Assembly: GCA_024699855.1 (NCBI GenBank)
Contig: JAMPIQ010000001.1
Span: 15,376,001 to 15,440,000, forward strand
Source: Aphelenchoides besseyi
Lineage: Eukaryota > Nematoda > Chromadorea > Rhabditida > Aphelenchoididae
Length of the DNA: 64,000 nt
Direction: 5' to 3'
Positions 13,930 to 45,714 of the stretch are shown one piece after another. The notes under the pieces were generated by a model, which had not been told where the DNA came from, did no database searches, and was given only the letters and a program-made list of their open reading frames with translations. The translations under genes were made by a program, and so were the position numbers. The number at the start of each line of letters is the position of its first letter. Positions within the stretch are counted from its first letter, which is position 1.

Positions 13930-14665
13930 TTAAGAGACGTTCGCTTTGGAATCCAATTCGAAGGTAACACATGAAAATGACCGTACTCTTAAACTGCCAA
14001 AGTTGTTCGATGGTAAGACTGACGTCTCGAGCATGTGGGTTTGAGCTTGTTGCATTCCAACGAGTTGAAATGATTTCTGAGTCAATGTGAGAGCTTTTCC
14101 TTCAGTAATCAAGTCCGAACGAGCTCTCACAAAACTTTTTTATTTCCAATTCCGCGTTTTCTAAGATCAAAATTTCAGCGAAAGCGAAAATCTTCGTTCG
14201 AATCGCGCAAACTTCGTAGCGTTCTAACGTTTTCGACTCGAAGTGAACACTCTGTTCGTCAAAACATTTACCAGATAGACGATCACAATACAAGTTGCTC
14301 TCTGCTTATCGTATTTAACGCATTTCTTTTCCAAGTCAAAGCTTCAGACACAACCGAGAGCTTGAAGGCAACATTCGGGAAAAAGAAGAAATCTTCCAAA
14401 GTAACAGCGATTGGTCTTCGCTGATAAGCAAATGACAAGTGCACAGATCCATTGTTATTTCAAGAAAGCAATTACAGAAAAAGCGAAGCTTGAACGAATA
14501 CAAAATTCAAATGGAGTTCACTATTTATTTGGCTTCTGTCTTCGTGGTGAAAATAGTAGTGACTGCGATCTGGAGGAGGAAGATCGTCTGACCACCGTCG
14601 AAGCGAACTCTGAACCACAGCCACAAGAAGTTTACCGTCGCGGGTTCCGCTTCATCCGAAATTGA
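13930..14665 (+). pseudogene. decayed UBL gene copy 'H' (leader plus ubiquitin core)
   Basis: 13930-14150 aligns, with many changes, to the 5' leader exon and first intron of UBL copies A-C (shared words include ctcgagcatgtggg/tttgagct and the ccaacgagtt block). Downstream the ubiquitin fold is recognisable but broken. VKASDTTESLKATFGKKKK corresponds to the beta2-alpha1 segment. A one-base shift and a TAA follow before QRLVFADKQM (ubiquitin QRLIFAGKQL), and IQNSNGVHYLFGFCLRGE stands where ubiquitin has its LRLRGG end. The last open stretch is 14411-14665. The intron found at the G|K position in the other copies is absent here. A relic is the most economical reading. Confidence 0.6.
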
Positions 14666-15532
14666 ATCTATGACCATTCCGGACGTACTCTCGAGATTGT
14701 GATTGCCCAATCGATCGTGCTGTTCGGGCAATTTATCATGGCATAAGTTTGGTGAAAAAATGACTTTTGTATACTCGTTTTCAATCTATATCAGCCCAAA
14801 AACCACGTTGTGTTTGTCGTTATATACGCTGTTTGTTGGGAATAAAATTGATAATACAACTCGGCTGTTGCACTGGAAGTTTTTCGATTAACAGTTGAAA
14901 CTCGATCCAACAAACATTTGGGCGCGTAGGAGTTTTGGGTCAAAGGTTGAAGGCAGTGAATTCGATTCACGTGTATTTTCTTATCGCGATTCTTCGGCAC
15001 GTTTTTACGGGGAAATTCGTTCAATAGAATCTTCGATCGAAAGTCGCCGAATAAAAATTCTTCGAAATTGCGATTTGCTGGCCGAAAAATAGAGGAAATT
15101 GGAAGCGATCGAGTCGAAAGGTTACGATGAAAATCCTGTTGTCTTCGCTGTTCGGTGAGTTTCCGTCGTTGCAATTGAACTCTCTAGTTTTCAGTGTTCG
15201 TTGAGGCGAATGAACTTCAGCGCGTTGTGCTGGTGGTTCTCGACATTCCGTGAGGCAAAACATGTCAGGGATAGAAGTCAGAGAGCAATTCGGGTCCCTG
15301 TCGACGGGCTGCAGAGATCTGTTATCTGCGGGCGTCGTTGGAGAATAGTTGCAAGTTGGAAACTGAAATGGTACAAACTCAAAACTACTGTTCATCGACG
15401 GTCAACATCCTGGGTGGTGGTGGTTTGAGGAATGAGTGTTGCGATTGTTATTAACTTGGGAAAAAACTGCAAGAGAATGGCGAGGAATGTGAAGCTCCAG
15501 TTGATTTCAGTGCACCCCCAAAGATCCGTTCC
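14666..15532. other. intergenic; possible two-exon secreted ORF fragment
   Basis: Little can be supported. At about 15127 an ATG opens MKILLSSLF, and after a consensus intron (gtgagttt to ttttcag, about 15155-15194) the frame continues VFVEANELQRVVLVVLDIP and stops. This looks like a signal peptide exon of a decayed gene. The duplicated block of module A begins sharply at about 15508 (cccccaaagatccg), where identity with modules B and C starts. Confidence 0.3.
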
Positions 15533-16805
15533 ATGAAGTGTTTTGCCATTTTGTTGTTCTCTTTTCTTATTCGTGCGCGTCTGATTCTTAGGCTCCCCAA
15601 TCAAACGCTCCTCGCCAACTTCTACACTCGAATTCGATGCGCTGTTCTACTTGCTAACTTCTTTTCGCTCGTCCATTTCTCTCGTTCAAACCGCTTGTTC
15701 TTAGCGCAATTCTTTTATCTTCGTTTCTTGTTGCCATTTAAGCGTAATAATTAACAGAAGCCTTCGGGGACACGTGTTCCCGTCGCAGCTTCCGATTGTT
15801 CCGTGGATTTCGCTCACAGTTTGCGGAATCCAAAACGCCTGCCGATTTCTCTTCTTCATTTCTTTGTCTGTGTGTTTCTATTTGATTTCATCTCCTGTGT
15901 TTGTCGAAAGTTGTAACCACCGAACTTTCTATAATAAACGATTTTCGTCGTTGCGGTTGAACACAAGTGCAGCTACTCGAGGGACGATGTCACCTTCCTG
16001 TCTATCCAACCGTTTCTTCAGTGATCTTATGGGCAACGGCAAAATGCTCGAAAGAGAAGATGCTGACAACTCGTGAATCCATCACCAAGTGCTTGGTGAT
16101 GCACCTTCCAAATTCATTTTCCCCTGATGTCACTACGCGAGTTTACGACGCAAGTCCTTCAATCGCAATTTGCCTGTTGACTGATCGAGAAATGGTGGAG
16201 ATCTTCATTTATTTTGGTTCAAATGAACTAACAAACGACACATCCGAAAGCTTGGAGTCTCGATTCTGTAAAAGAAGAAGCTGTCGGATGTACGGCCGGG
16301 AGTTGGTCATCAATCGTTTACAACGAGTGGAACAACGTTGATGTTATACCGGGTCATTTGATCGTATCAAGTGAGTTCAACGGAATCCATTTCAATACTT
16401 TCATTTTAGATGTGCTGTTAACGTTTCGATCTTCATTACGGCTCCCGGTTTGGATTGCTCTTATCATGTCTCTACTCTTTAGATTAAGATCACAGATTGC
16501 TTGATCACGAAGTCTATTGCAAGAACCGAACTGAATTTTGAATCAAATGGAAGTGGAGAACCGTTTTGCATTCCGTTTGCCGAACCGGTGGAAATGACTC
16601 TCGGCTGTGCGTATAGTGCATCGGCATTGTTAAAGGTTGGAAACGATCAATCGTTGTTTTCTTATTCGGATTTTAGGGTTCTGATTTGTTTTATGGATCG
16701 AAGGTCAGCGTTGAGTGTTACGCAAAAGCATCAAATACTATTACGTTTCTCTTCACGTTTGCTGACGGAACGAACAACAAACGTCGGTGGACGATGATCA
16801 AATAG
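15533..16805 (+). CDS. gene X, module A copy: predicted secreted orphan
   Basis: An ATG at 15533 gives MKCFAILLFSFLIRA, a plausible signal peptide. The next exons are uncertain. Later exons read clearly: VGCTAGSWSSIVYNEWNNVD (about 16290-16369), KITDCLITKSIARTELNFES ... CIPFAEPVEMTLGCAYSASA (about 16486-16638), an intron at about 16639-16678, and DLFYGSKVSVECYAKASNTI ... RRWTMIK with stop at 16805. Cysteines and Asn-x-Ser/Thr sites fit an extracellular protein. I recognise no domain. It converges on the UBL gene, with 3' ends about 420 bases apart. Copies B and C are nearly identical except at the C-terminus, where this copy reads into a different tail. Confidence 0.5.
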
Positions 16806-17221
16806 TGTGTTTATAGTTCTGCTTAAAGATGCAGCTAATTGTAAATAGCGCCACATTAGTCGTTGTTTTCGCTAGTCAACTATCTTAGTCTCAACATAAA
16901 CACTTTCATATGAAATGGAGAAGCGAGTTGATCTGATGCCAAAAGATAGAATTCGAGCTGCAGAATCTCGTCTATTTCATTGAGAGTCACAACTACGAGC
17001 CTTGTGAAAGACTCAAAAGTAAAACAGACGTTAGAGGTGTAACTAATGTTTTCGAGACAATGCATCAAGACCACGTCTGACGAAATAGAATCAGATTGCA
17101 GAAAAAGAAAAAGACATGAAACCACGTATTTATTTAAAATTTTCAATTGTCTACAGCGATTACAACGAAAAATGAGGTAGAAGACTTGGATGAATACAAA
17201 GACTTGGTAGTAAGATTCGAT

Positions 17222-18093
17222 TCAATCATTGGCTACGCGACGTCGACGCAAGCCGGGATGACTAATCGACTCTTCTGAATCTGGTTCCTTTTTTATGAGT
17301 CCAAGTTGCTCGTAGAGATAAGCGATTCGAGGTTTCAGTCTTTCGTGTAGCTCCGGAGGTCCACTGAGAATACGATCGAGTTCTTTATTGTGGAGCATCT
17401 CAGCCGCAAGTGCCTGTCGAGCTTCAATTACTTCCTTATCCCAGTTAAAATGAAAGTCCAAAATTGGGGTCTCTTCTATTTCGTGTAAACCGTATTCCAT
17501 GAGCATTTTATCATCTTTGAGTTCCATTCCTAAAATGAAACAGTTAATCAGCAAAGTTGTTTTGAGCTTACGACAAAAAGTTGCAATTTGTTGGTCTGCC
17601 GGAAGGCCTCCTATTTTTTGAATCTTTTCCTTCACTTGTTCGACGGTGTCGGTGGGTTTGACCTGAAATGACGGCAAAGTAGACAGACGGTAAAGTACAA
17701 ACGTACCTCAAGCATAAAATTTTGCCAATTCCAAAATACCACTTTGATCTTCATGATCCACGACAACAAGAAGAGAGCATTTGATCGAAGATGTTCAACT
17801 GAAATCAAATCGACACTTGCTAATCGAAAAAACTCGCAAACGATCGAGAAGTTAAAAAACACGTGATTAGCAACAAGAGAAAAATTTTGCGCGAGCTCTT
17901 TGGGACTTGAGAACTGAAAGGAAAACTCACTCGTTGGCTCAGAATCTATTCCAACGAGTTCAAGGCAATGAATCCAAAGCTCAAAACCACATGCTCGAGC
18001 CGTCAGTCTTGACCACCGGACAACATTGCCGGTCTCCGGGAATCTTGGCATTTCGTTCAACTTCATGTCACGATCCAGGATTTGAGAGTCCAT
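17222..18093 (-). CDS. ubiquitin-like (UBL) domain protein, copy A
   Basis: Four exons. Exon 1 starts MDSQILDRDMKLNEMPRF directly after a tttcag acceptor, which suits SL trans-splicing, and ends near 17942. After a ~150-base intron come EHLRSNALFLLSW and the UBL beta1 strand MKIKVVFWNWQNFMLE. Exon 3 is VKPTDTVEQVKEKIQKIGGL then PADQQIATF (ubiquitin VEPSDTIENVKAKIQ.. PPDQQRLIF), and exon 4 MELKDDKMLMEYGL. The intron between exons 3 and 4 interrupts the fold at the ubiquitin G|K position. The protein does not end in GG. It has an ~85-residue charged helical tail ending SISHPGLRRRRVAND. No diglycine means conjugation is unlikely; it could act as a UBL adaptor. About 220 residues. Confidence 0.72.
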
Positions 18094-18430
18094 CTGAAAG
18101 CAGCCACTGAACATCGTGGAAAAAGAACTAAGCATTCCGATCGACAAAATCACTTGAATGCTCGAGACGTTTGATCATCGCAGTTAGCATGTTCAAGTCA
18201 CAAAGGTAATCGCAACTGAATCCGCTTATCAACCACTTCGGAAAAGCACAATCCACACGTTTAGTGCAACTAATCACACAAAGTTCTTTGTTTGCGTCAC
18301 AACAGAAGTTGCACGATCATTCGAATCAATTAGCTCCAGGGACTACACTACAAACTACATGTAAAACGAGTAGAGTCAAGACGGTCGCTATAAAAAGACG
18401 ACCAAGTCGAAGGTTATGACATCGCGTACG
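18094..18430 (+). promoter_or_regulatory. shared UBL/UGT intergenic promoter, copy A
   Basis: Divergent region between the UBL leader (minus) and a UGT exon 1 (plus). It contains a TATA-like ctataaaaag near 18388 and a block (18238-18430) repeated with few changes at 28840-29030 and 42820-43017. Conservation of this non-coding block beside broken coding sequence is notable. Confidence 0.55.
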
Positions 18431-18610
18431 ATGTTGTTTTGTCCTGCGATTGTTGTTTGTCTTGTTGCCGGCTGTTTTTGTTGAACGTTTTCTGTTCATA
18501 TCTACGAATTTGGGACACTCTCACATTGGTTTTACAGGATGTTTAGCGGACATTTTAGTTGATGCCAGACATGAAGTCGTGAGTTCGAAACGTTCAATTC
18601 AAGAGAATGT
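18431..18610 (+). pseudogene. UGT exon-1 fragment (module A)
   Basis: ATG at 18431 starts MLFCPAIVVCLVAGCFC and hits a stop. Relative to copy D, two bases are missing in the signal peptide, shifting the frame. The remaining exon-1 sequence (HSHIGFTGCLADILVDARHE) is readable in another frame, then the copy is cut off inside the first UGT intron near 18608. Dead fragment. Confidence 0.75.
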
Positions 18611-24017: not shown

Positions 24018-26761
24018 ATGAAACAAAGAAATAACTTGCGAGTGGATATCGAACGTCCGCCGGATTCTGTTGTCAATCTCTTCTATCGACTCGCCGATTT
24101 CAGTTCGGAAGAACGAGTTGCGGCGGCGGTCGAATTGTTGAACTGCGAAGGAGTGAGTTTCAGCCAAATGTTTTCAATTGCTCTTTAGATTTCAACTCAA
24201 TACGAAGACTACGTTCTTGACCGTCCGATTCGAGGACTGGCGACTGGAAAGACGGCTTGTCGCTTCGGCTTCTCGACCGCACTTGGCGGATTTCTGCAAA
24301 CGTATCCCGACACGTTGGACGTCGACGAGTTTCTGAAGTTGGTCGAGGAAAAGTTGCCGTTGAATTTGCAGAAATCGGTTGGTCCTTCTTTCTTTAACTC
24401 TTCTTATTTCGTTTAGGAAAACGTTGCCAATGGCATTGGACAACATTTGGCCTTTCTCTCGGCCTACGAATCTGCGGCTTTCGATTCGCACTTGAGGAAA
24501 CTGGTAATTCGGCATGTCGCTTTGTTGTCCGATTCTCCGTTCTTGTCATTGGCGGTTGTCAACGCGATTTCCGATGCGGCTAAACGACTCGACGCTTCGG
24601 AGTTCAAAAAACTAATTCTGCCGCAGATTCGTTCGTTAATTGAACAGCCCCTTTCGACAATCACTCTTCACGGATTGATTCTGCTCATCGATTTAGCTCC
24701 AGTGTTTCCGGTTCGTTTGATTCTGTCTAGTTCTGAATCGTCTTCTTTTAAAAGCTTTTATGTTCGGTCAACTCGGCAGTGTCTTCTGGAGGCCTCGAGA
24801 TCAAGGACAAAGATCACGAATCGATCATATCGTTGTTGAAGGCAAGCGAATTGTCATGTACGGTTATTATGGTTTGTAGAGCGCTGATCCCTCACATCGG
24901 CATGCGATTTGCGTCAAAATTCTCCGGTTGGGTGCCGACAATCACAAGTTCACGACGCTGCTCAGCGGCATCGTTAACAAATACGTTTGGGAGGGAGACG
25001 AAGCGAAATCGTGTGCTCGCTATTTCGATCTGATGGCAAATTTGTTTGCCGAAACAAAGTTTGGAAACGATCAGGTAACAGATAACTCGTATTCTTCTGT
25101 TCGATTGTTTAGGTTCTGCAATTGTTTGACACAAAGTTCGTGGTTTCTTGTCGCAAATACGCTCATCGTTCGGATCCGTCTTTTCGTGGAATGGACGCTG
25201 AATTGCTGAAGCGATTGATGAGGCGAAGAAGCGAATTGAAAGCCAAGAGTTTGAGTCTAATGATCTATACAACTTCCTGGAGATGATCGATGGAGTTGAA
25301 GGCGGTGATTTCGACACTCGAGTTGCTCTGCCGTTTCGTTTCACCGAATTTCTGATTTCCAAATTGAACAACGACGATTACATTCGATTTGCTCAAAGAG
25401 TGAGTTTGCGTGTTCGGATTCACGAACTCTTCCCTAGGCATTCCGCCAAGATCACTGGTCGTATAAACGGTTGGTGGTGGATTTCGCTCAACGACCTTCC
25501 GGTGTCAAGAAATCGGTGCTGTCGAGTTTGGAGAAGAAGGACGAAAAGACATTCACTGTTGCTTGTGGATTGTTGGAACAAATCTTCAAAGTTCATTACA
25601 AGTTCAATCGTTTCGCTGAAGTGGAATTGAAGGCCACAGATGCGGAGATGTTGTTGGAGTTGTTGTGTCCAGCTAAAAAGTCGACCAAAAACAAGAAATC
25701 GGATAAGTGAGTTCGATGCATTTGACATTCAAACGTTTTGTTTAGTTCTCTGGAGATTCTGGCCGCTGGTCTTCGCTATCTTGGTCGAGTGGCTTCCGAT
25801 GAACAGGATGCAGAGCAGTATTCCAACGAAGCAGACGAGTTGATCAAGATCTCTCGAAAACCTACTGGTCAATTAACTGCACTGATGGATTTGTTGATTT
25901 CGGTAATCAGTCGAATTCATCGCGTCCATCGACCGTTAGCGTTCTTTGGCATCACGAAGAATCACTCGCTTTTCCAACCAAAGGATGTTGAGCACTTGGT
26001 TGACGGTATCTGTCGTTCCGATTCACAGATCTTGGATGATGGAGAAGATATGATGGACGAAGATGACGAATTCAAACCGATCACCGAAGAGGAACGTCGA
26101 GCAATTCAAGAGAAATGGGCCAAAAACGCGGATGATGTTGAGATGAAAGAAGAAGCCGAAGAGACCGATGACTCCACGGATGCTGACTCCGAAGTGGATG
26201 TTGGCGACGACGAAGAAGAGCAGTTGGACCCGACGGCGCCTGTCGATCCGCTTTTCGTTGCACGAATCAAAAATGCTCTGGGCAAAGCAGCTTTCGAAGA
26301 GGAAGATCAAAGCGACACGGTCAGTTTCTTCACTTTCTTTCCTCATTGTCGACTTTTAGGACATCGAAATGGACGATGAAGAGATGGAAGAGTTGGACAA
26401 GAACTTGGCTTCAGCTCTGCGAACATTCACGACTCGTGGCAAGAAAGAACAAACCGAAAATGTGAAGGTGTTTCGCTCCAAATGCATCGAAATTCTGAAC
26501 GTTTATTTCACTGTTGCCACCCTCGAAGAAGCTCAAGTGAGTGATCAGTCGCCTGATAGAAACTACAAGTTCTGTTTATAGGCGAATATCCACAATCTGA
26601 AGTCTCTTGTTTCGTTTCTTCAACGCCATCAGTTTACAGAGTTGTTGAAGAAAACGAGCGCAATTTGCACGGCAATCGCAAACAAACACAAGAATTTGAA
26701 ACCGCAGTTTCAACGTAGAGGAGAATTGTTATTATCGAAAGTGGAGCCGGAAGAAAAGTAA
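24018..26761 (+). CDS. MYBBP1A: Myb-binding protein 1A / DNA polymerase phi (POL5) homologue
   Basis: Nucleolar HEAT-repeat protein needed for rRNA synthesis. Begins MKQRNNLRVDIERPPD then VVNLFYRLADFSSEERVAAA and the family landmark DYVLDRPIRGLATGKTACRF. Helical repeats follow (KLPLNLQKS, IRSLIEQPLSTITLHGLILL). The diagnostic acidic C-terminal region is present: FFGITKNHSLFQPKDVEHLV, DGEDMMDEDDEFKPITEEER, EEEQLDPTAPVDPLFV, then MDDEEMEELDKNLASALRTF. About ten exons with short introns, ending KVEPEEK at 26761. Its 3' UTR (26762-26905) is duplicated near 45110-45290 downstream of UGT copy D. Confidence 0.85.
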
Positions 26762-26915
26762 TTGGTTGTTGTCAGATGTTCTAAACGAGTGTTTTTGTTG
26801 ACTTTGATTGTTTTTTATTGTTGTTAAGTTTTCCAGTAAAAGTTTGAGTAAATACTGCAGACAATGAGTTTTATAGTCCTTTATTTCTACAACAAAGAAA
26901 TCAACAATCCAAAGT

Positions 26916-29172: not shown

Positions 29173-30047
29173 ATGGACTCTCAAATCCTGGATCGTGACA
29201 TGAAGTTGAACGAAATGCCAAGATTTCTGGAAAGCGGCACTGTTGTCCGGTGGTCAACACTCACGGCTCGAGCATGTGTTTTTGAGCTTTGGATTCATTG
29301 CCTTTGAACTCGTTGGAACAGATTCTGAGCCAACGAGAGAGTTTTCCTTTCAGTTCTCAAGTCCCAAAGAGCTCGCGCAGAACTTTTCTCTTGTTCTCAA
29401 TCACGTGTTTTTTTTAACTTCTCGATCGTTTGCGAGTTTTTCCGATTAGCAAGTGTCGATTTGATTTCAGTTGAACATCTTCGATCAAACGCTCTCTTCT
29501 TGTTGTCGTGGATCATGAAGATCAAAGTGATATTTTGGAAAGGGAAAAGTTTCATGCTTGAGGTACGTTTGTACTTTACCGTCTGTCTACTTTGCCGTCA
29601 TTTCAGGTCAAACCCACCGATACCGTCCGACAAGTCAAGGAAAAGATTCAAAAAAAAGTAGGCATTCCGGCAGACCAACAAATTGCAACTTTGTGTCGTA
29701 AGTTCAAAACAACTTTGCTGATTAACTGTTTCATTTTAGGAATGGAACTCAAAGATGATAAAATGCTCTTGGAATACAGTTTACACAAAGTAAAAACGGA
29801 CGTAATTTTGGACTTTTATCTTGAAAAGGATAGGGATCTATTCAAAGGTCAACACGAATATTTGTTAATGGCATCCGACACAGTGGAACTTCATCGTTTT
29901 CTCAATGGATCTTCGAATCTACGCGAAAGATGGAAACTTCGAATGGCTTATCTCTACGAGCAAGTTGGAGTCACGCAAAAGAAACCAGATTCAGAAGAGT
30001 CGATTAGTCATCCCGGCTTGCGTCGACGTCGCGTAGCCAATGATTGA
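29173..30047 (+). CDS. ubiquitin-like (UBL) domain protein, copy B
   Basis: Same architecture as copy A. The leader reads MDSQILDRDMKLNEMPRFLE, the UBL strand MKIKVIFWKGKSFMLE, then VKPTDTVRQVKEKIQKKVGI, PADQQIATL and MELKDDKMLLEYSL, and the helical tail ends SISHPGLRRRRVAND. The donor of intron 1 has changed from gtgagt to gagagt (about 29334), so the leader exon may be skipped or spliced elsewhere in this copy. The UBL core remains open and could be expressed from MKIKV. Exon 4 is identical to copy C apart from one residue, while exons 2-3 differ at many residues. Confidence 0.68.
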
Positions 30048-30478
30048 ATCGAATCTTACTACCAAGTCTTTGTATTCATCCAAGTCTTCTACCTCATTTT
30101 TTGTTGTAATCACTGTGGACAATTGAAAATTTTAAATAAATACGTGGTTTTATGTCTCTTTCTTTTTCTGCAGTCTGATTCTATTTCGTCAGACGTGGTC
30201 TTGATGCATTGTCTCGAAAACATTAGTTACACCTCTAACGTCTGTTTCACTTTTGAGTCTTTCACAAGGCTCGTAGTTGTGACTCTCAAGGAAATAGACG
30301 AGATTCTGCAGCTCGAATTCTATCTTTTGCCATCAGATCAACTCGCTTCTCCATTTCATATGAAAGTGTTTATGTTGAGACTAAGATAGTTGACTAGCGA
30401 AAACAACGACTAATGTGACGCTATTTACAGCTTTACTGCATCTTTAAGCAGAACTATAAACACGGTATTTGATCATCG

Positions 30479-31739
30479 TCAACCGAATGTACCGTTGTTC
30501 GTTCCGGCAGCAAACGTGAAGAGAAACGTAATAGTATTTGATGCTTTTGCGTGGAATTCATCGCTGACCTTCGATCCATAAAACAAATCAGGACCCTAAA
30601 ATCCGAATAAGTAAACAACGATTGATCGTTTCCAACCTTCAACAATGCCGATGCACTATACGCACAGCCGAGAGTCATTTCCACCGGTTCGGCAAACGGA
30701 ATGCAAAACGGTTCTCCACTTCCATTTGATTCAAAATTCAGTTCGGTTCTTGCAATAGACTTCGTGATCAAGCAATCTGTGATCTTAATCTAAAGAGTAG
30801 AGACATGATAAGAGCAATCCAAACCGGGAGCCGTAATGAAGATCGAAACGTTAACAGCACATCTAAAATGAAAGTATTGAAATGGATTCCGTTGAACTCA
30901 CTTGATACGATCAAATGACCCGGTATAACATCAACGTTGTTCCACTCGTTGTAAACGATTGATGACCAACTCCCGGCCGTACATCCGACAGCTTCTTCTT
31001 TTACAGAATCGAGACTCCAAGCTTTCGGATGTGTCGTTTGTTAGTTCATTTGAACCAAAATAAATGAAGATCTCCACCATTTCTCGATCAGTCAACAGGC
31101 AAATTGCGATTGAAGGACTTGCGTCGTAAACTCGCGTAGTGACATCAGGGGAAAATGAATTTGGAAGGTGCATCACCAAGCACTTGGTGATGGATTCACG
31201 AGTTGTCAGCATCTTCTCTTTCGAGCATTTTGCCGTTGCCCATAAGATCACTGAAGAAACGGTTGGATAGACAGGAAGGTGACATCGTCCCTCGAGTAGC
31301 TGCACTTGTGTTCAACCGCAACGACGAAAATCGTTTATTATAGAAAGTTCGGTGGTTACAACTTTCGACAAACACAGGAGATGAAATCAAATAGAAACAC
31401 ACAGACAAAGAAATGAAGAAGAGAAATCGGCAGGCGTTTTGGATTCCGCAAACTGTGAGCGAAATCCACGGAACAATCGGAAGCTGCGACGGGAACACGT
31501 GTCCCCGAAGGCTTCTGTTAATTATTACGCTTAAATGGCAACAAGAAACGAAGATAAAAGAATTGCGCTAAGAACAAGCGGTTTGAACGAGAGAAATGGA
31601 CGAGCGAAAAGAAGTTAGCAAGTAGAACAGCGCATCGAATTCGAGTGTAGAAGTTGGCGAGGAGCGTTTGATTGGGGAGCCTAAGAATCAGACGCGCACG
31701 AATAAGAAAAGAGAACAACAAAATGGCAAAACACTTCAT
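30479..31739 (-). CDS. gene X, module B copy
   Basis: Mirror image of 36205-37465 and, as far as I could compare, identical to it. Signal peptide MKCFAILLFSFLIRA, later exons VGCTAGSWSSIVYNEWNN and KITDCLITKSIARTELNFES, and C-terminus KASNTITFLFTFAAGTNNGT. It differs from copy A near the last exon (FYGSKVSDEFHAK versus FYGSKVSVECYAK, losing a cysteine). Function unknown. Confidence 0.5.
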
Positions 31740-32126
31740 GGAACGGATCTTTGGGGGATGGGAGGAGGTCATGAGTGGCAATTCGACTTGTTACTTTGGG
31801 CGCAAAACGAAGAAAGTGAGCGCTTCTGAAAAGGATGATGACTAGCGAGAAATCAATGGGCAAATTGAGGCAAAGAAAACACAAAATGACCCGCAGCAAC
31901 CAAACGGAAGTCCACTTATGACCGAACGATTATTTTAATTCCAAATCCTAAACGATTGTTGTCATGAAAAGGGCTGTGAGCTTGAAAACCGACTTCAGAA
32001 ATGAATCCCACGATCCGGTAAAAACGGCCATTCCATCTTCGGTCACGCCGAGACCAGACACACGATTATCGTGACCAGCAAGTACTCCTGAAAAGTTTGT
32101 TTAGACTCGACGTTTCGTCCACCCAA

Positions 32127-32838
32127 ATGGCCGCCAACGCTCATCGCACCAAAACATTTCAGCAAACCACCAAGACAACGTCGCGAAGTGCCGATGACGA
32201 GACGTGTTGTTGCTGCATTCCTATCATAGTAAGTGAGGGTGCGGGCCGAACTACGACCACTTGTGATCTTCAGGTCGGTGCCAAGCTCATCGCCGTTTGG
32301 GTGATTGCAATGTCGCTGTTCAGTCTCATGAATAACATCTATGTTATTGCTCACCCAAATGTGACCCATAGATATCTTCTGGTTATTGTCTTGTTCTTTT
32401 AGCCTCCCGAAGAGAAATCGTTTTCGTTGGACTACGCGTTGTACAAGAAATACGGAAAGACGACGGTCTACATCGATTTGGCTTCCGATCTCTGTGCCAT
32501 CATTCTCTCGATTGTGATTCTCTACGGAATCTACACCAAAAATCAACGTTGGTTCATTCTGCCGTGTCTCTACAGTGTGAGTCCATGGACCCTGACAACC
32601 ATAATCGCGATTTCAGGGCGTCGAAGTTCTCGGTCGAATGTTCGTAATCGCCAATTGGTGCATCTACACGGACGAGTATCTTCACAGCGGCGGTTTTCTG
32701 GATGTGCCCACGAATCGACGTACTCAAGCGGTTATCATCATCTCCTCGAGGATACTCGTCGGAGTTCTTCACTGCGCCATGCAAATCTATTTCATTTGGA
32801 CGATGGTATTGGCGAGTCGTGTTATTAAGCAGAGTTGA
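32127..32838 (+). CDS. four-TM LAPTM4-like membrane protein (left arm)
   Basis: MAANAHRTKTFQQTTKTTSR, a Cys cluster (ETCCCCIPII), then an intron (about 32229-32272) and membrane segments KLIAVWVIAMSLFSLMNNIY, a loop (FSLDYALYKKYGKTTVYIDL), LCAIILSIVILYGIYTKNQR, WFILPCLY|GVEVLGRMFVI, and TQAVIIISSRILVGVLHCAM. Topology and the WxxPxxxY segment resemble lysosome-associated LAPTM4 proteins. Four exons with consensus splice sites. This is the intact copy; the right-arm copy carries a frameshift. Confidence 0.6.
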
Positions 32839-33013
32839 AGTAGACGGAATGAGCTTCATTCTTGTCGAACGATTACCGGAGATATTCACGTTTCCTTGTA
32901 AATTGTAGTCGAGCAATTAAACGAGAATATTGAAGTTTACAAAGATTACAAAGATTTATTCGGTTCAATCAACAAATCAACAACAAGATAAAATGAAAGA
33001 TGGTAAAAGATAG

Positions 33014-33613: not shown

Positions 33614-34609
33614 AAGACGGTCGCTTCGCTCCCGTCTTTTGCCGTTAGTGGCGTTGGGTTTGTAACGTGGGTTGGAGGGGAGTTGATAAAGTTGACTACC
33701 TGACGTTGGGGGCCTTCAGCCCGAAAAGTGCAAGACGGTCAACGGACTTTTGAATTGTGTTCGAAACAGTTTGATACGATAAGAATATTGAAGATGAGTT
33801 GGGAAGCGAAACATAAAGTTATGAAAATAAACGGTTCGAGCAGACTCCTAATCGACTCAAAAATCGTTTGTAATGTAAGCGGATTGACTCTTAGTTGAAA
33901 AGCCACTTCACGTACGCCAACGTGATCAATCCATCGAAGTGGTGCTTTCGTTTTGAAGGAAGAAAGCGTAAGAAACATATTTGTGTCAAAGAATGAACGA
34001 CAATTAAACATCCATTGAATCGTCGTCATCGGCTGTTAGATTGGCCGGTAGCTTAACGGGAGCAGTTGTAGTAACGACATTGGAATTAACTGCGTTCGCG
34101 TCAGCTTCCAATTGTGTCACGAATTTCGTGACTTCCGGATTGACAACATTCAACATCAACTTGCTTTGCTGTCGTGCTTTGGGATCGGTTTGCACATTAT
34201 CCGGCTTGAAAATGTAGATGTCAGATGCGCGACGAACACGCGACAAAGCCACATACAACTGACCGTGCGCAAAGACCGGCGAGTTCAAATACAACCCGAT
34301 TCGCTCCATTGTTTGGCCCTGGGCTTTGTTGATGGTCATTGCGAATGCCAATTTCAAAGGAAATTGGACACGACGAAAAGCCACCGTTTGGCGTTGATCG
34401 TAGTTGACTTTGCGATCGAAAACTCGACGAACAACGTCGATTTCTTCGCCAGTCAAACCATCGGACTCGATGCGGCGAACAGTCACGACGTCCGGTTGCG
34501 AATCGGTGACAACTGCCGGAGTGCCGTTGCAGAGTCGGTAGGAGGTGTCGATGTTCGAAATGAACATGACTTTTGCGTCGATCTTCAGCTTCAATTGCTG
34601 TTGAGCCAA
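33608..34609 (-). mobile_element. Helitron 3' part: helicase ORF end plus terminal hairpin
   Basis: Rolling-circle transposon remnant. The ORF 34004-34609 is the C-terminal part of the Pif1-like helicase: KIDAKVMFISNIDTSYRLCN, PLKLAFAMTINKAQGQTMER (motif V region) and VFAHGQLYVALSRVRRASDI (motif VI). About 370 bases beyond its stop, 33614-33638 forms a 7-bp hairpin (aagacgg...ccgtctt) around a gagcgaagcga-type loop, as at Helitron 3' ends. The expected CTRR is not clean (CTTG is nearest). The hairpin abuts the RTE frame, so the Helitron seems to have inserted in the RTE. The 5' side is cut off at 34609. Confidence 0.75.
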
Positions 34610-34614
34610 GCGGA

Positions 34615-34874
34615 ACCCATGATCCTAACTACCAGGTCATCCTTCGACTATCAATCCATTAAACTCGTTGTTCCAGACTCTGGCAGCCATCGACAACAAC
34701 TGCTTCCAGAAACCTAATGGTGCTTTCTCACGTTCAGACGGTGGCTTCGCGATTCCGCCCGCGAAATCTCCGGCCGCTCCGCCGCATCCTCCAGCACAGT
34801 TGGGAATGGCACAGACTCACGACCCGAATTACCAAACTTTGGCGGGAATAGGAGGCGACGTGTTCAAGAAGTGA
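34615..34874 (+). pseudogene. gene fragment with THDPNYQTLA repeats
   Basis: Two exons: HDPNYQ before an intron (34636-34678), then TLAAIDNNCFQKPNGAFSRS, a Pro/Ala-rich linker (PAAPPHPPAQLGMAQ) and a second repeat THDPNYQTLAGIGGDVFKK with stop at 34874. The repeated THDPNYQTLAxI unit implies a longer repetitive protein, of which only the 3' end is here. It abuts the truncated Helitron ORF exactly, so it looks like a captured or rearranged fragment. Family not assigned. Confidence 0.5.
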
Positions 34875-35103
34875 ACAGCAGAGTGGTTCGGTTCATTCGA
34901 TCAATAAACGTTCCATACAATTTCCAGCTCGGAAACAACTTTCGTAGTTCAATTCAAATGTCAGTGGCTGTTGACAACAAAGTCCTTGGGATTTAGAACA
35001 GGTGAACTTCAATATTCTCGTTTAATTGCTCGACTACAATTTACAAGGAAACGTGAATATCTCCGGTAATCGTTCGACAAGAATGAAGCTCATTCCGTCT
35101 ACT

Positions 35104-35817
35104 TCAACTCTGCTTAATAACACGACTCGCCAATACCATCGTCCAAATGAAATAGATTTGCATGGCGCAGTGAAGAACTCCGACGAGTATCCTCGAGGAG
35201 ATGATGATAACCGCTTGAGTACGTCGATTCGTGGGCACATCCAGAAAACCGCCGCTGTGAAGATACTCGTCCGTGTAGATGCACCAATTGGCGATTACGA
35301 ACATTCGACCGAGAACTTCGACGCCCTGAAATCGCGATTATGGTTGTCAGGGTCCATGGACTCACACTGTAGAGACACGGCAGAATGAACCAACGTTGAT
35401 TTTTGGTGTAGATTCCGTAGAGAATCACAATCGAGAGAATGATGGCACAGAGATCGGAAGCCAAATCGATGTAGACCGTCGTCTTTCCGTATTTCTTGTA
35501 CAACGCGTAGTCCAACGAAAACGATTTCTCTTCGGGAGGCTAAAAGAACAAGACAATAACCAGAAGATATCTATGGGTCACATTTGGGTGAGCAATAACA
35601 TAGATGTTATTCATGAGACTGAACAGCGACATTGCAATCACCCAAACGGCGATGAGCTTGGCACCGACCTGAAGATCACAAGTGGTCGTAGTTCGGCCCG
35701 CACCCTCACTTACTATGATAGGAATGCAGCAACAACACGTCTCGTCATCGGCACTTCGCGACGTTGTCTTGGTGGTTTGCTGAAATGTTTTTTGGTGCGA
35801 TGAGCGTTGGCGGCCAT
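35104..35817 (-). pseudogene. LAPTM4-like gene, right-arm copy with N-terminal frameshift
   Basis: Same exons as 32127-32838, but about ten codons after the ATG (35817) an A-run is two bases longer (about 35788-35795), so the frame shifts after HRTK and soon ends. Everything downstream is identical to the left-arm gene. Either a true null copy or a homopolymer sequencing/assembly error. Confidence 0.7.
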
Positions 35818-36204
35818 TTGGGTGGACGAAACGTCGAGTCTAAACAAACTTTTCAGGAGTACTTGCTGGTCACGATAATCGTGTGTCTGGTCTCGGCGTG
35901 ACCGAAGATGGAATGGCCGTTTTTACCGGATCGTGGGATTCATTTCTGAAGTCGGTTTTCAAGCTCACAGCCCTTTTCATGACAACAATCGTTTAGGATT
36001 TGGAATTAAAATAATCGTTCGGTCATAAGTGGACTTCCGTTTGGTTGCTGCGGGTCATTTTGTGTTTTCTTTGCCTCAATTTGCCCATTGATTTCTCGCT
36101 AGTCATCATCCTTTTCAGAAGCGCTCACTTTCTTCGTTTTGCGCCCAAAGTAACAAGTCGAATTGCCACTCATGACCTCCTCCCATCCCCCAAAGATCCG
36201 TTCC

Positions 36205-37465
36205 ATGAAGTGTTTTGCCATTTTGTTGTTCTCTTTTCTTATTCGTGCGCGTCTGATTCTTAGGCTCCCCAATCAAACGCTCCTCGCCAACTTCTACACT
36301 CGAATTCGATGCGCTGTTCTACTTGCTAACTTCTTTTCGCTCGTCCATTTCTCTCGTTCAAACCGCTTGTTCTTAGCGCAATTCTTTTATCTTCGTTTCT
36401 TGTTGCCATTTAAGCGTAATAATTAACAGAAGCCTTCGGGGACACGTGTTCCCGTCGCAGCTTCCGATTGTTCCGTGGATTTCGCTCACAGTTTGCGGAA
36501 TCCAAAACGCCTGCCGATTTCTCTTCTTCATTTCTTTGTCTGTGTGTTTCTATTTGATTTCATCTCCTGTGTTTGTCGAAAGTTGTAACCACCGAACTTT
36601 CTATAATAAACGATTTTCGTCGTTGCGGTTGAACACAAGTGCAGCTACTCGAGGGACGATGTCACCTTCCTGTCTATCCAACCGTTTCTTCAGTGATCTT
36701 ATGGGCAACGGCAAAATGCTCGAAAGAGAAGATGCTGACAACTCGTGAATCCATCACCAAGTGCTTGGTGATGCACCTTCCAAATTCATTTTCCCCTGAT
36801 GTCACTACGCGAGTTTACGACGCAAGTCCTTCAATCGCAATTTGCCTGTTGACTGATCGAGAAATGGTGGAGATCTTCATTTATTTTGGTTCAAATGAAC
36901 TAACAAACGACACATCCGAAAGCTTGGAGTCTCGATTCTGTAAAAGAAGAAGCTGTCGGATGTACGGCCGGGAGTTGGTCATCAATCGTTTACAACGAGT
37001 GGAACAACGTTGATGTTATACCGGGTCATTTGATCGTATCAAGTGAGTTCAACGGAATCCATTTCAATACTTTCATTTTAGATGTGCTGTTAACGTTTCG
37101 ATCTTCATTACGGCTCCCGGTTTGGATTGCTCTTATCATGTCTCTACTCTTTAGATTAAGATCACAGATTGCTTGATCACGAAGTCTATTGCAAGAACCG
37201 AACTGAATTTTGAATCAAATGGAAGTGGAGAACCGTTTTGCATTCCGTTTGCCGAACCGGTGGAAATGACTCTCGGCTGTGCGTATAGTGCATCGGCATT
37301 GTTGAAGGTTGGAAACGATCAATCGTTGTTTACTTATTCGGATTTTAGGGTCCTGATTTGTTTTATGGATCGAAGGTCAGCGATGAATTCCACGCAAAAG
37401 CATCAAATACTATTACGTTTCTCTTCACGTTTGCTGCCGGAACGAACAACGGTACATTCGGTTGA
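36205..37465 (+). CDS. gene X, module C copy
   Basis: Identical to the B copy. Signal peptide MKCFAILLFSFLIRA at 36205. The best-supported exons cover about 36950-37042 and 37155-37310, then the last exon after the intron at about 37311-37349, ending FTFAAGTNNGT and stop at 37465. Converges on UBL C. Unknown family; the middle exon boundaries are not secure. Confidence 0.5.
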
Positions 37466-37898
37466 CGATGATCAAATACCGTGTTTATAGTTCTGCTTAA
37501 AGATGCAGTAAAGCTGTAAATAGCGTCACATTAGTCGTTGTTTTCGCTAGTCAACTATCTTAGTCTCAACATAAACACTTTCATATGAAATGGAGAAGCG
37601 AGTTGATCTGATGGCAAAAGATAGAATTCGAGCTGCAGAATCTCGTCTATTTCCTTGAGAGTCACAACTACGAGCCTTGTGAAAGACTCAAAAGTGAAAC
37701 AGACGTTAGAGGTGTAACTAATGTTTTCGAGACAATGCATCAAGACCACGTCTGACGAAATAGAATCAGACTGCAGAAAAAGAAAGAGACATAAAACCAC
37801 GTATTTATTTAAAATTTTCAATTGTCCACAGTGATTACAACAAAAAAAATGAGGTAGAAGACTTGGATGAATACAAAGACTTGGTAGTAAGATTCGAT

Positions 37899-38770
37899 TC
37901 AATCATTGGCTACGCGACGTCGACGCAAGCCGGGATGACTAATCGACTCTTCTGAATCTGGTTTCTTTTGCGTGACTCCAACTTGCTCGTAGAGATAAGC
38001 CATTCGAAGTTTCCATCTTTCGCGTAGATTCGAAGATCCATTGAGAAAACGATGAAGTTCCACTGTGTCGGATGCCATTAACAAATATTCGTGTTGACCT
38101 TTGAATAGATCCCTATCCTTTTCAAGATAAAAGTCCAAAATTACGTCCGTTTTTACTTTGTGTAAACTGTATTCCAAGAGCATTTTATCATCTTTGAGTT
38201 CCGTTCCTAAAATGAAACAGTTAATCAGCAAAGTTGTTTTGAACTTACGACGCAAAGTTGCAATTTGTTGGTCTGCCGGAACGCCTTCTTTTTCTTGAAT
38301 CATTTCCTTCACTTGTCGGATGGTGTCGGTGGGTTTGACCTGAAATGACGGCAAAGTAGACAGACGGCAAAGTACAAACGTACCTCAAGCACGAAACTTT
38401 TCCAAGCCAAAAATACCACTTCGATCTTCATGATCCACGACAACAAGAAGAGAGCATTTGATCGAAGATGTTCAACTGAAATCAAATCGACACTTGCTAA
38501 TCGAAAAAACTCGCAAACGATCGAGAAGTTAAAAAACACGTGATTAGCAACAAGAGAAAAATTTTGCGCGAGCTCTTTGGGACTTGAGAACTGAAAGGAA
38601 AACTCACTCGTTGGCTCAGAATCTATTCCAACGAGTTCAAGGCAATGAATCCAAAGCTCAAAACCACATGCTCAAGCCGTCAGTCTTGACCACCGGACAA
38701 CATTGCCGCTTTCCAGAAATCTTGGCATTTCGTTCAACTTCATGTCACGATCCAGGATTTGAGAGTCCAT
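37899..38770 (-). CDS. ubiquitin-like (UBL) domain protein, copy C
   Basis: Same four-exon layout as copy A. UBL strand MKIEVVFLAWKSFVLE, exon 3 VKPTDTIRQVKEMIQEKEGV and PADQQIATL, exon 4 TELKDDKMLLEYSL, and tail ending SISHPGLRRRRVAND. The intron-1 donor gtgagt is intact. Compared with copy A, exon 2 differs at 6 of 16 residues from MKIK onward with one silent change, while the next intron differs by one base. No diglycine end. Confidence 0.7.
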
Positions 38771-39104: not shown

Positions 39105-39185
39105 AGATCCGTCAATGATTCGCACAGGCATGTTTGCCATCAGAATTATAGGTTGTTGAAGTTCTCTTTGATCCAATTTTTTGTG
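39105..39185 (-). pseudogene. UBL-tail relic F4 (partial)
   Basis: The minus strand reads KNWIKENFNNL, matching the tail motif of relic F1 (NWIKENFNNL) and, more distantly, F2 (KKWIPENFGNF). Only about 80 bases are recognisable. Confidence 0.4.
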
Positions 39186-39229
39186 TACTTATAACCGCGT
39201 ACCGCGCGGCCTTCATCCGCGCCGCCACA

Positions 39230-39559: not shown

Positions 39560-39800
39560 TTCCATTATCTCCGTCTTTTCCCGATTTCGTCATCGAGATC
39601 GGACAAGATAATAAGTTGTTAAAATTCTCTTTAATCCAATTTCCGATGAATAGATATCCTCGTTGTAGTTGTATAATTCACCCCTTCCTTTACGCGTTCA
39701 CCTTCTTCTCCGTCCTGTAAAAAACCGCCACAAGGACAGAAAACCAAGTAAAGAGTGAAATATATGGTGCCCGAAGCTTCACGCTGAAGAAAGTCGTTTA
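39560..39800 (-). pseudogene. UBL C-terminus plus tail relic F1
   Basis: The minus strand reads ASGTIYFTLYLVFCPCGG, where ubiquitin has ESTLHLVLRLRGG, then a charged tail LQDGEEGERVKEG. After a frame change comes IGNWIKENFNNL. The di-glycine is kept but followed by a tail. Frame breaks make it a probable pseudogene. Confidence 0.5.
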
Positions 39801-39894
39801 CCTTTGATTTTGATTCCGATTCTTTCACTTGTAGAAGTACGAACAGAGATCACCCTAAAAACAAAAATTAATTTTTTAATTCAAAACGACCATA

Positions 39895-40250
39895 CCTAAA
39901 GGTAGATCTTTTTGTTTTGGACAACTGTTTTCAAAGCATAACGTATTCTTCGCACTGTTAACGCTGATGTCCGACGTGTTCTGGGCTTCTCGGTTTTCCG
40001 TATGACCATTGTTGTCCAAACCGTCAATAACAAAATAAATTCCGATGTTGGCCAGAAATATTATCGTGAAATTTCCAAAGTTCTCAGGGATCCACTTTTT
40101 TACGAAGTTAAGCCACGCATTGCTCGTCCTTCTTCTACAAGTTCTTTTGCTCGTTCCGCTTCTTCATTGTCTGTAATCATACCTCCACAAAGTTAGAGAA
40201 CCAAGTAAATAGTGAAATCCATAGTGTCTGGGATTTTGACCTGAAAACAA
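39895..40250 (-). pseudogene. UBL C-terminus plus membrane-like tail relic F2
   Basis: After an acceptor (gttttcag at about 40243) the frame reads VKIPDTMDFTIYLVL, then TAA, then LCGGMITDNEEAERAKEL. The TAA replaces the Arg of LRLRGG. After a further shift, AWLNFVKKWIPENFGNFTII and FLANIGIYFVIDGL give a hydrophobic segment, then an Asn-rich end. Same plan as F1 and F3; broken. Confidence 0.55.
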
Positions 40251-40274
40251 ATCGAATTAGAAAGCTCCAGAAAC

Positions 40275-40446: not shown

Positions 40447-40722
40447 CTATAAGTAATGCTTTTCAATCAAACGTACCATAAAATTGGCGATGAATATTAC
40501 CAAGTTTGATGAGTGACGTTTGAACCAATTTAATGTCGTGTTCCACCCTTGCTTCCGAATGCTTTCGTTTGGTAGTTCTGCGGCACGTTCATTTTCTTTC
40601 TCATCCTGAACTAAGCCCCCACAAAGACGCATCATCCGTGTACGGTGGAGTGCTTTTTAATGTTATAATGCGCTACGGTGCGTTCATCCTCGAGATGCTT
40701 TCCTTGAAGTTGCGTTTTGATC
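40447..40722 (-). pseudogene. UBL C-terminal exon plus hydrophobic tail relic F3
   Basis: After an acceptor (acttcaag, about 40712) in the same phase as the other UBL genes, the frame reads KHLEDERTVAHYNIKKHSTV, close to ubiquitin [20 protein letters not shown]. A one-base shift follows, then MRLCGG (ubiquitin LRLRGG), a charged stretch LVQDEKENERAAELPNES, and a possible membrane segment LVIFIANFMVRL, ending at 40447. This is the clearest ubiquitin match of the array. Confidence 0.62.
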
Positions 40723-41150: not shown

Positions 41151-41366
41151 AGAATTTGGCCGTAGAAAGATCAAATTAGCAAAGTGTGTTCATTGAATAT
41201 AAGCGCGCTTCTAACAATTTCATGCGGGATTATATAGATCGCGGGCGTCCGGTCGAGAAGTGCATTAATGCACAAGTGGGGGCGTTCTTAACGTAAACGC
41301 CTCCGCTTTTCCCGTGACTTTCACGGACAGAGTTTGCGAAAAAGTTTTGAGGCAATGAAGACTCAC

Positions 41367-41856
41367 CACTTCTCCAGACGCTTTGATGGGCATTGTTCTT
41401 AGATCAACTTGAAAGTGAACAAAATCACGAAGGCAATTGAAAAGCGCGATAAAGCAAAAGTGGAGAAATGAAACACCAAACTAAAAGTCGCGAGTCTGAA
41501 CGCCGTTCACCTAACAGACGGCCTAAAAAACGATCGACTTTCCGTTCGAAAGTCGTTTTGGCATCGTGCATCAGAAGGTGCGATTCAAACGGCAATTTTG
41601 GTTTTCGTTGAACTTTCAATCTCAACACGTGATTGGAAACAAGGAAAAACTTTTCCGAGAGCTCGTTTAAACTCGACAATTGAAAAAAAACTCACTCGTT
41701 GGCTCAGAATCTATTCCAACGAGTTCAAAGGCAATGAATCCAAAGCTCAAAACCACATGCTCAAGCCGTGAGTCTTAACCACCGGACAACATTGCCGGTT
41801 TCCAGAAATCTTGGCATTTCGTTCAACTTCATGTTACGATCGATTTGAGAGTTCAT
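41367..41856 (-). pseudogene. UBL leader fused to eL20-like first exon (copy D)
   Basis: 41690-41856 is the UBL leader exon (MNSQ... NEMPRF, donor gtgagt retained) as in copies A-C. Instead of the UBL exons, similarity then switches to a sequence shared with locus E: a conserved hairpin (cgactttc/gaaagtcg, about 41532-41552) and a 9-codon exon MPIKASGEV with a gtgagt donor (41393-41367), like the N-terminal exon of an eL20 (RPL18A) type ribosomal protein gene. The downstream exons are missing. Confidence 0.5.
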
Positions 41857-41991
41857 CTGAAAGCAACCACTGAAGATCGTGAAGAAACAATCGACCATTT
41901 CGAGAGTTGTAATCACTCGAGACGTTTGATCATCGCAGTTGGCATGTTCAAGTCACAAAGGTAATAGCGACTGAACCCGTTGGTCAACCAC

Positions 41992-42819: not shown

Positions 42820-43017
42820 CCACTTCGGAAAAACACAATCCACACGTTTAGTGCAACTAATCACACAAAGTTCCTTGTTTGCGACACAACAGAAGTTGCA
42901 CGATCATTCGAATCAATTAGCTCCAGAGACTACACTACAAACTACATGTAAAACGAGTAGAGTCAAGACGATCGCTATAAAAAGACGACCAAGTCGAAGG
43001 TTACGACATCGCGTACG
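42820..43017 (+). promoter_or_regulatory. UGT promoter block, copy D
   Basis: Right-hand part of the shared promoter, after the solo LTR. It retains the ctataaaaag element near 42975 and matches 18238-18430 with few changes. Confidence 0.5.
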
Positions 43018-45001: not shown

Positions 45002-45175
45002 CAATAACAACAATAACGAGAAAAACAGAATAATAACCGACCCACCGGCCCTGCGAGCCCAAAAACGACCCCAGCCGATCAGCGGATTGTTCTTCATCGA
45101 TTTCGCGTGCTCGCGACAACGGTCTAAACTTTGGATTGTTGATCTCTTTGTTGTAGAAATAAAGCACTATAAAAC

Positions 45176-45714
45176 TCACTGTCTGCAGCATTTACTCAAA
45201 CTTTTATTGAGAATATAACAAAAACAAAAAACAATGAAACTCAACAAAGACACTCGATTACGACATCTTAAAACAACCAATTTCTTTTGGATGTTGCATT
45301 CGGCCAGAGTCCGTTCATTTTCAAGTTGTTCGCCTGAAAGATTCTGTTGCTTTACAAACAGGAATCGTAAACTTACCTTCAAAGATCAAACGTTGTTGAT
45401 CTGGAAGCATACCCCCCTTGTTTTGGATCTTCGCTTTCAGATTTTCGATCGTTTCAGTGGCCTCGAAATCGGCAGTGATCGTTTTACCATTCAACGTATT
45501 GAGGAAGATTTGTACGCGCGTTTTCTTCACCTGACGGCGTTGGGACGGGAAGTACCAATAACGCGATCTTGGAACAACGACAAATTTCTTCAACTGAAAT
45601 GGCGAAGATGAGAACGAAAAATTTGGTCGAAAAGTCGGAAAGTTTCAACGTTTTTGGAGTTTGCGAAAAAGTATCGAGAATATTCACCACTTCTCCAGAC
45701 GGTTTGAGCGGCAT
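45176..45714 (-). CDS. chimeric eL20-like / ubiquitin / MYBBP1A-3'UTR ORF (locus E)
   Basis: Exon 1 (45714-45688) reads MPLKPSGEV. Exon 2 (from 45593) reads [20 protein letters not shown] then QVKKT, resembling the VVAKSRFWYFVS region of ribosomal protein eL20, and runs straight into ubiquitin: [46 protein letters not shown]. After an intron at the same position as the other UBL genes come [17 protein letters not shown], then a tail translated from sequence homologous to the 3' UTR of MYBBP1A (26762 on). The ubiquitin end STLHLVLRLRGG is therefore lost. The frame is open throughout, so it could be expressed; a decaying chimera is equally possible. Confidence 0.55.

Follow-up and report, generated by a model that had tools for sequence, protein, structure and literature searches.

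Ubiquitin is among the most conserved proteins known, and the ubiquitin extension effectors of cyst nematodes, such as Hs-UBI1/GrUBCEP12, carry a signal peptide and a diglycine (GG). A gland site and cleavage have been reported for these effectors, according to sections of one source (PMC5632807). Fusions of ubiquitin with ribosomal proteins almost always involve eS31 or eL40; rare partners given in sections of a second source are eS8, eS19, uL1, eL41 and P1, and ubiquitin can be C-terminal or internal (PMC8122580). The term eL20 is absent from the main text of that paper, a search that covered the main text only and not the name L18A. We analysed a stretch of 64,000 nucleotides of Aphelenchoides besseyi (C1:15376001-15440000, hereafter the window) in a genome of 47.4 Mb and 31 contigs, which our genome-wide searches cover. 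The window carries genes A, B and C, predicted to encode ubiquitin-like (UBL) proteins with a helical tail. Like the cyst-nematode effectors, these join ubiquitin to a novel C-terminal extension in a plant-parasitic nematode, but they lack the GG and any obvious secretion signal, and the extension is long and predicted to be helical. Loci E and D, and probably the F fragments, appear to belong to a separate family of eL20-ubiquitin-GG-hydrophobic-tail fusions, with intact copies outside the window; these fusions keep the GG but carry eL20 in front. Literature searches of titles and the beginnings of abstracts brought up no account of the A-type family or of an eL20-ubiquitin fusion, in line with an earlier sequence-only reading of this DNA that knew of no described family with the layout, nor did they turn up a paper with the A. 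besseyi genome assembly as its main subject. The models of the three genes are:

17222..17754, reverse strand: gene A, 148 residues, spliced model with exons 17754-17707, 17662-17572 and 17529-17222; UBL and helical tail, no GG.
29515..30047, forward strand: gene B, 148 residues, spliced model with exons 29515-29562, 29607-29697 and 29740-30047.
37899..38431, reverse strand: gene C, 148 residues, spliced model with exons 38431-38384, 38339-38249 and 38206-37899.

All three products matched the Pfam ubiquitin family PF00240 (E-values of 5e-11, 9e-13 and 1e-10 for A, B and C), with scores of 42.6, 48.2 and 41.2 bits that lie above the curated cut-off of 25.4. The A-type proteins were collinear with residues 1-76 of ubiquitin, 24-28 of the 76 residues being identical in the five copies compared. 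They share this collinearity with the ubiquitin and polyubiquitin of the same genome, and differ from ubiquitin in lacking the diglycine, in having Thr at position 44, in a 72-residue extension after position 76 and in the codon-level support for positive selection given below. Residues 75-76 were NW in A, EK in B and C, and EE in the copies L035 and L037; proteins with no diglycine are predicted not to be conjugated in the usual way. An AlphaFold2 model of a close relative, of which the VIA rows cover residues 1-80, showed a ubiquitin (beta-grasp) fold, then helices and a disordered C-terminal end that bears an invariant LRRRR. The fold and the missing diglycine bear out the sequence-only reading; its helical tail of about 85 residues agrees with the predicted helices and is too long by our count. 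A hydrophobic run near the start of A-C coincides with the first beta strands and, judged by hydropathy only, is fairly hydrophobic in C and L035.

A Pfam scan of A-C, reported to an E-value of 1 with HMMER filters that drop most matches above 0.1, gave no match to UBA, F-box or MATH domains. With no C-terminal UBA match, the proteins differ from UBL-UBA shuttles of the Rad23/Dsk2 type. A likeness of the tail to Elongin B, suggested by a PPEL..KP motif, was considered and rejected, there being no Elongin match in Pfam.

Each of the three genes has three exons separated by GT-AG introns of 44 and 42 nt and is open for 148 residues, and the tail of C (codons 77-148) is identical to that of B. 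The first intron, which the sequence-only reading had missed, falls between ubiquitin residues 16 and 17, and the second inside codon 47. Both match, in position and phase, introns of the polyubiquitin repeats and the Ub-eL40 gene of the same genome; only the second is present in its Ub-eS31 gene and two monoubiquitin genes (the Ub-eL40 and Ub-eS31 genes were labelled as such by eye). The sequence-only reading had taken a shared intron after the IFAG equivalent as a sign of common descent. The intron is real, but since it is common to polyubiquitin, Ub-eL40, Ub-eS31 and monoubiquitin genes it shows ubiquitin descent and not a single special family. The first intron, present in A-C and absent from E and the eL20 fusions, separates the two groups, so that the proposed common descent of the cluster holds as descent from ubiquitin and fails as a single lineage.

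The first Met of the best model aligns with ubiquitin Met1. Translation of B and C revealed no in-frame ATG upstream of this position, and in A the upstream frame is open and contains ATGs. We rejected the N-terminal leader of the sequence-only reading as the best reading, because the Met1 equivalent is the first in-frame Met in B and C; A-C are best read as starting there without a leader, and for A alone a leader is compatible with the sequence and the start is less clear. By eye, a nine-codon upstream open reading frame sits just 5' of the A start codon, its stop overlapping the start (ATGA), behind a TTTCAG that is a candidate trans-splice acceptor; this arrangement is not kept in the copy L044. 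The 42-nt second intron (17530-17571, 29698-29739 and 38207-38248) has no in-frame stop, and its retention leaves the frame open; an annotated relative of 162 residues, P0004, is annotated as retaining it.

Amino-acid change in these genes was in excess of most measures of silent change. In Nei-Gojobori comparisons of 10 copies, omega was greater than 1 in 34 of 45 pairs for the UBL and in 29 of 45 for the tail (undefined in one pair each). A and C formed the extreme pair: their UBL parts differ by 35 nonsynonymous changes and 1 synonymous change, and their tails by 43.3 and 5.7, compared with 0 of 150 upstream, 2 of 86 intron and 8 of 248 3' flank positions. Over their first 141 codons 85 of 423 nucleotides differ, divided as 42, 29 and 14 among the three codon positions. 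Mean pairwise differences per site at codon positions 1-3 were 0.179, 0.103 and 0.068 in the UBL and 0.197, 0.175 and 0.111 in the tail; the corresponding values were 0.032 in introns (excluding L035, which has a 43-nt intron), 0.050 in the 3' flank and 0.100 in the 5' flank (range 0-0.20). The excess is clear relative to silent sites, introns and the 3' flank, and weaker relative to the 5' flank.

Codon likelihood runs used 10 of the 12 copies of the genomic cluster described below, including truncated L041; L042, which has the same protein as L041, and L036, without an acceptor, were left out. Site models were our own implementation, with relative branch lengths fixed from M0. The UBL gave an omega of 2.19 (p = 0.003 versus 1), and M8 was preferred to M7 (p = 4e-10) with 43% of sites near an omega of 5. 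For the tail (nine sequences, the B and C tails being identical; codons 77-141) omega was 1.78 (p = 0.03; M8 versus M7, p = 0.015). Of 15 UBL sites with a posterior above 0.95, eight fell within 45-48 and 60-68, which we take to be the face bearing the ubiquitin docking patch. The distant pair L044-L045 pointed weakly in the same direction (N 21.5, S 2.5; p = 0.07 for N versus S). As a control, a UGT exon duplicated in the same region had an omega of 0.43 in the one usable segment of three; a second segment (omega 0.54, N 58.2) is probably out of frame. Positive selection is supported by these models for the UBL and, with less certainty, for the tail. The codon analyses speak against neutral decay of A-C, which the sequence-only reading had counted, if joined to absent transcripts and found in all copies, as evidence against its view.

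A genome search with protein A gave 45 exon-level matches and 17 A-family loci, of which 12 are clustered at C1:14.87-15.72 Mb (at least 55% identity) and five (L044, L045, L046, L047 and L055) lie elsewhere at 31-39%. Nine cluster copies are intact in our models, open with GT-AG introns; the three damaged ones are L041 and L042, with an early stop, and L036, without the second acceptor AG. The distant L044 and L045 retain the layout and the LRRRR end; L046, L047 and L055 were left out of the gene models used in the analyses. All eight matches to the A tail among annotated proteins came from A. besseyi, and a profile search found 31 matches, 17 named A. besseyi and 14 without a species name, several labelled ubiquitin. 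As far as annotation goes, the named relatives with the tail are all from A. besseyi.

Five of the eight annotated relatives (P0001 and P0005-P0008, all of assembly M3Y98) have 148 residues and the same start and splicing as our models of A-C; P0003 (202 residues) has an additional N-terminal stretch in its annotation, and the splicing of P0002 and P0004 differs. Of the 148 residues, P0001 has 143 in common with A; all are the same between P0005 and L035 and between P0007 and L038, and no more than 130 agree between P0006 or P0008 and the best-matching copy of each. The A. besseyi assemblies M3Y94 and M3Y95 also have annotated relatives, at 53-57% identity. B and P0023 agree over the first 62 residues, and L034 and P0025 over the first 58; by eye, the P0023 annotation departs from the third exon of B, with a splice to sequence around 34.7 kb in the window. 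Words of the B/C-type tail were absent from all fetched relatives, a search of annotated proteins only.

The second family emerged from a genome search with the eL20 (RPL18A) profile PF01775, which found six loci over the cut-off and one below. L068 (C1:15856034) is an intact unfused eL20 gene of 180 residues (Pfam E-value 1e-23), and in the other five eL20 continues in frame into ubiquitin. L069 (284 residues) and L070 (272 residues), both outside the window, are open with GT-AG introns and have, by Pfam, eL20 and ubiquitin domains; after eL20 come ubiquitin, beginning at Met1, then LRGG and finally an acidic tail that includes a hydrophobic stretch (hydropathy peaks of 0.87 and 1.86, respectively). 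Their eL20 part lacks 27-28 residues near the start and the last 20. L072 has LQGG after ubiquitin and a non-GT first donor, L073 and L071 apparently lack 5' exons, and L074, outside the six PF01775 loci, resembles E. Like the Ub-eS31, Ub-eL40 and FUBI-eS30 precursors, the fusions combine a ribosomal protein with ubiquitin, or a relative of it, within a single polypeptide; here, however, the partner is eL20, it precedes ubiquitin in L069, L070 and L072, opposite to the eS31/eL40 order, and ubiquitin is followed by GG and the hydrophobic tail. E and the fusions have only the second ubiquitin intron.

In L069, L070 and L072 the ubiquitin part had an omega of 0.16-0.24 at a dS of 0.70-1.36, and the eL20 part 0.33-0.47 at a dS of 0.13-0.18 (0.27-0.52 against the unfused gene). 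Such purifying selection on the fusion ubiquitin argues for function, and the eL20 part, with its lower dS, may have been homogenised later with the unfused gene. Cleavage at the GG could release a hydrophobic tail peptide from an eL20 that carries ubiquitin at its C terminus, and an uncleaved protein could be tied to a membrane. A search for the eL20-ubiquitin junction in other proteins was uninformative, the best 120 of 1240 matches being swamped by polyubiquitin.

Remnants in the window, and the DNA that its loci share, are:

45688..45714, reverse strand: exon 1 of E, the first nine eL20 codons (MPLKPSGEV), by blastn to the eL20 gene L068.
45176..45593, reverse strand: exons 2-3 of E (45593-45377 and 45333-45176), an eL20 piece (..SRYWYF..KKT) and ubiquitin to about residue 64, then former 3' untranslated region (UTR); no GG.
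41330..41615, reverse strand: D, eL20 5' flank and exon 1, ATG at 41393; blastn 75% over 291 nt to the eL20 gene.
40459..40703, reverse strand: F1, a ubiquitin end (40703-40638) and charged/hydrophobic tail (40620-40459), not in one frame; tblastn 7.7e-6 and 1.9e-8.
40044..40186, reverse strand: F3, a CGG end and a tail like that of F1, broken; tblastn 1.8e-4, two pieces.
39631..39849, reverse strand: F2, a CGG end and charged tail piece, from translation by eye; no tblastn match.
39155..39217, reverse strand: F4, a short tail fragment; weak tblastn E-value of 0.02.
13998..14434, forward strand: H, an A-type upstream piece (13998-14164, blastn) and then a decayed ubiquitin copy (14252-14434; weak tblastn E-value of 0.028).
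17756..18200, reverse strand: upstream region of A, common to B, C, D and partly H; blastn 94% to C, 90% to B, 85% to D and 75% to H.
29407..32940, no strand: left arm of a palindrome, carrying B; mirror of 35002-38539.
35002..38539, no strand: right arm of the palindrome, carrying C, from inverted-repeat comparison.

E aligned with L068 by blastn at 82% over 673 nt (46210-45573). A deletion reaching into the former 3' UTR (83.5% like that of L070 over 91 nt) has taken away the end of its ubiquitin, and because its stop lies 3' of AATAAA and the ubiquitin end is gone, E is probably dead. The start of D is joined to A-type upstream DNA (41624-41955), 85% like that of A. The leader that the sequence-only reading saw in D is present, but in both D and E it is the start of eL20, which that reading overlooked. 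F1, F3 and, weakly, F4 matched the L069 tail by tblastn, and no F relic in the window matched the L070 tail. On sequence likeness E, D and F1-F4 resemble decayed remnants of the eL20-ubiquitin family, the F relics less surely, and H looks like another ubiquitin relic. The cluster of unusual ubiquitin-derived loci described earlier is upheld for A-C, E and F1, and weakly for H; the charged, partly hydrophobic tail ascribed to the F relics was recovered in F1 and F3, remained weak in F4 and was seen by eye only in F2.

Window positions 26755-26846 (forward strand), adjoining a UGT gene copy, are 84% like the L070 3' UTR region over 92 nt. L071 (C3:7191842 onward) is an eL20-ubiquitin relic followed by VGER/VDER repeats, near a helicase frame that is Helitron-like by eye, and L073 (C1:15226414-15226557, reverse strand) is a 5'-truncated copy with a DEAD-box-helicase-like piece before it, also by eye. 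A third ubiquitin group (L029, L075 and L076; C1:16.37-16.41 Mb) keeps both ubiquitin introns and has ubiquitin followed by a tail that is coiled-coil-like by eye; the ubiquitin ends in RGG in L075, whose model ran without a stop, and L076, and in IGG in L029. Tail dS was 1.3 and 1.5 in the two computable pairs compared with 0.10-0.29 for ubiquitin, and the tails also lay far above introns. No likeness of these tails to those of A-C was seen, by eye only.

The region is rich in inverted duplications. In the palindrome around B and C, the inverted repeats of 2058 nt and 790 nt are 100% identical and that of 696 nt is 97% identical; the last contains 21 differences, 17 of them exonic, 1 intronic and 3 upstream. 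A Pif1 2B-domain helicase fragment, which we take to be Helitron-like, lies near the palindrome centre (34004-34624, reverse strand; Pfam E-value 8e-9).

We put at about even the chance that A-C are lineage-specific, non-conjugable UBL proteins that arose from a conventional two-intron ubiquitin gene and act as decoys or adaptors in a conflict. A kept fold, a fast-changing surface and helices for a partner would suit a decoy or adaptor for ubiquitin receptors. The UBL may dock on such receptors (E3s, deubiquitinases or the proteasome), the helical tail may bind a partner, and the basic LRRRR end may, as a guess from that motif, direct the protein to the nucleus. A changing antagonist, such as an intracellular parasite, the product of a transposon or selfish gene, or a host factor, would drive the change in the UBL, and recombination and gene conversion in the duplicated, palindromic region would spread variants. 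Several observations weigh against this. Omega was at most 1 in 10 of 45 UBL and 15 of 45 tail pairs, and of the 29 tail values above 1, 23 come from pairs with a tail of the B/C/L041 type, so that the tail signal mostly reflects the difference between two kinds of tail; dS of the tail in those pairs (about 0.12-0.16) is higher than the divergence of introns, and part of it may be older sequence acquired by recombination. The 5' flank, at 0.10 per site, is about as divergent as UBL codon position 2 (0.103), with introns and 3' flank lower, which makes A versus C the extreme and not the rule. Recombination among copies can inflate site models, which were run in our own code with fixed relative branch lengths; the tail M0 test and the L044-L045 comparison gave p-values of only 0.03 and 0.07, selected sites 5 and 23 vary only by V/I-type changes, and an omega above 1 has causes other than an arms race.

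It is unlikely that the proteins are neofunctionalised intracellular immune adaptors, and not decoys, in the manner of the Caenorhabditis F-box and MATH families. According to sections of the sources, the genes that intracellular parasites induce in C. elegans include F-box and MATH genes (PMC9762603), and F-box proteins are expanded and fast-evolving in nematodes (PMC12680543). These F-box and MATH/BATH adaptors, as lineage-expanded, fast-evolving parts of the ubiquitin system, are the nearest evolutionary parallel; the fold differs, however, and here the ubiquitin-like domain itself evolves fast. The Pfam scan with no F-box, MATH or UBA match argues against such adaptors, which are hard to tell from decoys by sequence. 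Diversifying selection would also fit contact with a host, and A. besseyi is a plant parasite, ubiquitin extension effectors occurring in cyst nematodes, as sections of PMC5632807 have it; the open upstream frame of A and the annotated N-terminal extension of P0003 likewise speak for such effectors here. That A-C are secreted effectors like Hs-UBI1/GrUBCEP12, disturbing plant ubiquitination and diversified by the host, is nevertheless unlikely: the best start is ubiquitin Met1, the hydrophobic run (judged by hydropathy only) coincides with the first beta strands, and the diglycine is lost, while LRRRR hints at an intracellular site and shows nothing.

Duplication and decay would make the genes functionless leftovers, with selection an appearance created by recombination or gene-model artefacts. 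H, D, E and F1-F4 are decayed or truncated, three of 12 A-type copies are damaged, and the region is full of inverted duplications with a Pif1-type helicase fragment; but nine of the 12 copies have open frames and GT-AG introns, five of the eight annotated proteins follow the same models in another assembly, and amino-acid change above silent and intron change in most pairs is not expected from decay, which we consider decidedly unlikely. Very unlikely is a toxin-antidote or selfish cluster in which the eL20-ubiquitin chimeras are toxic variants and the hypervariable UBLs linked antidotes. It has a precedent in the fars-3-derived toxins and KSS F-box antidotes of Caenorhabditis tropicalis, as far as sections of that source go (PMC12680543), where copies of an essential gene are likewise linked to a fast-evolving ubiquitin-pathway family; toxicity and antidote action are known there, whereas here the parts are known from sequence alone. 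Duplicates of an essential gene do lie beside such a family in A. besseyi, and copies differ between assemblies (P0005 and P0007 of M3Y98 identical to ours, P0001 at 143/148, P0006 and P0008 at 130/148). That no fetched relative has the B/C-type tail words would fit as well, weakly, since only annotated proteins were searched, and purifying selection on the fusion ubiquitin counts against toxic variants. Just as doubtful as decay is a wider conception, a ubiquitin-derived conflict locus in which non-conjugable mimics and linked eL20-ubiquitin chimeras form a selfish (toxin-antidote-like) or immune system; selection would remake the docking surface of the mimics, and the system would police translation or ubiquitin signalling in a parasitic nematode.

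In one nematode lineage, the amino acids of ubiquitin copies appear to be replaced at a higher rate than silent sites or introns change, with the fold preserved. If true, an active conflict would be played out on the ubiquitin surface in this animal, and the A-type copies would be natural variants with which to find the receptors involved. The eL20-ubiquitin-tail fusions reverse the usual precursor order with their ubiquitin under purifying selection, and may therefore serve to test the purpose of such fusions.

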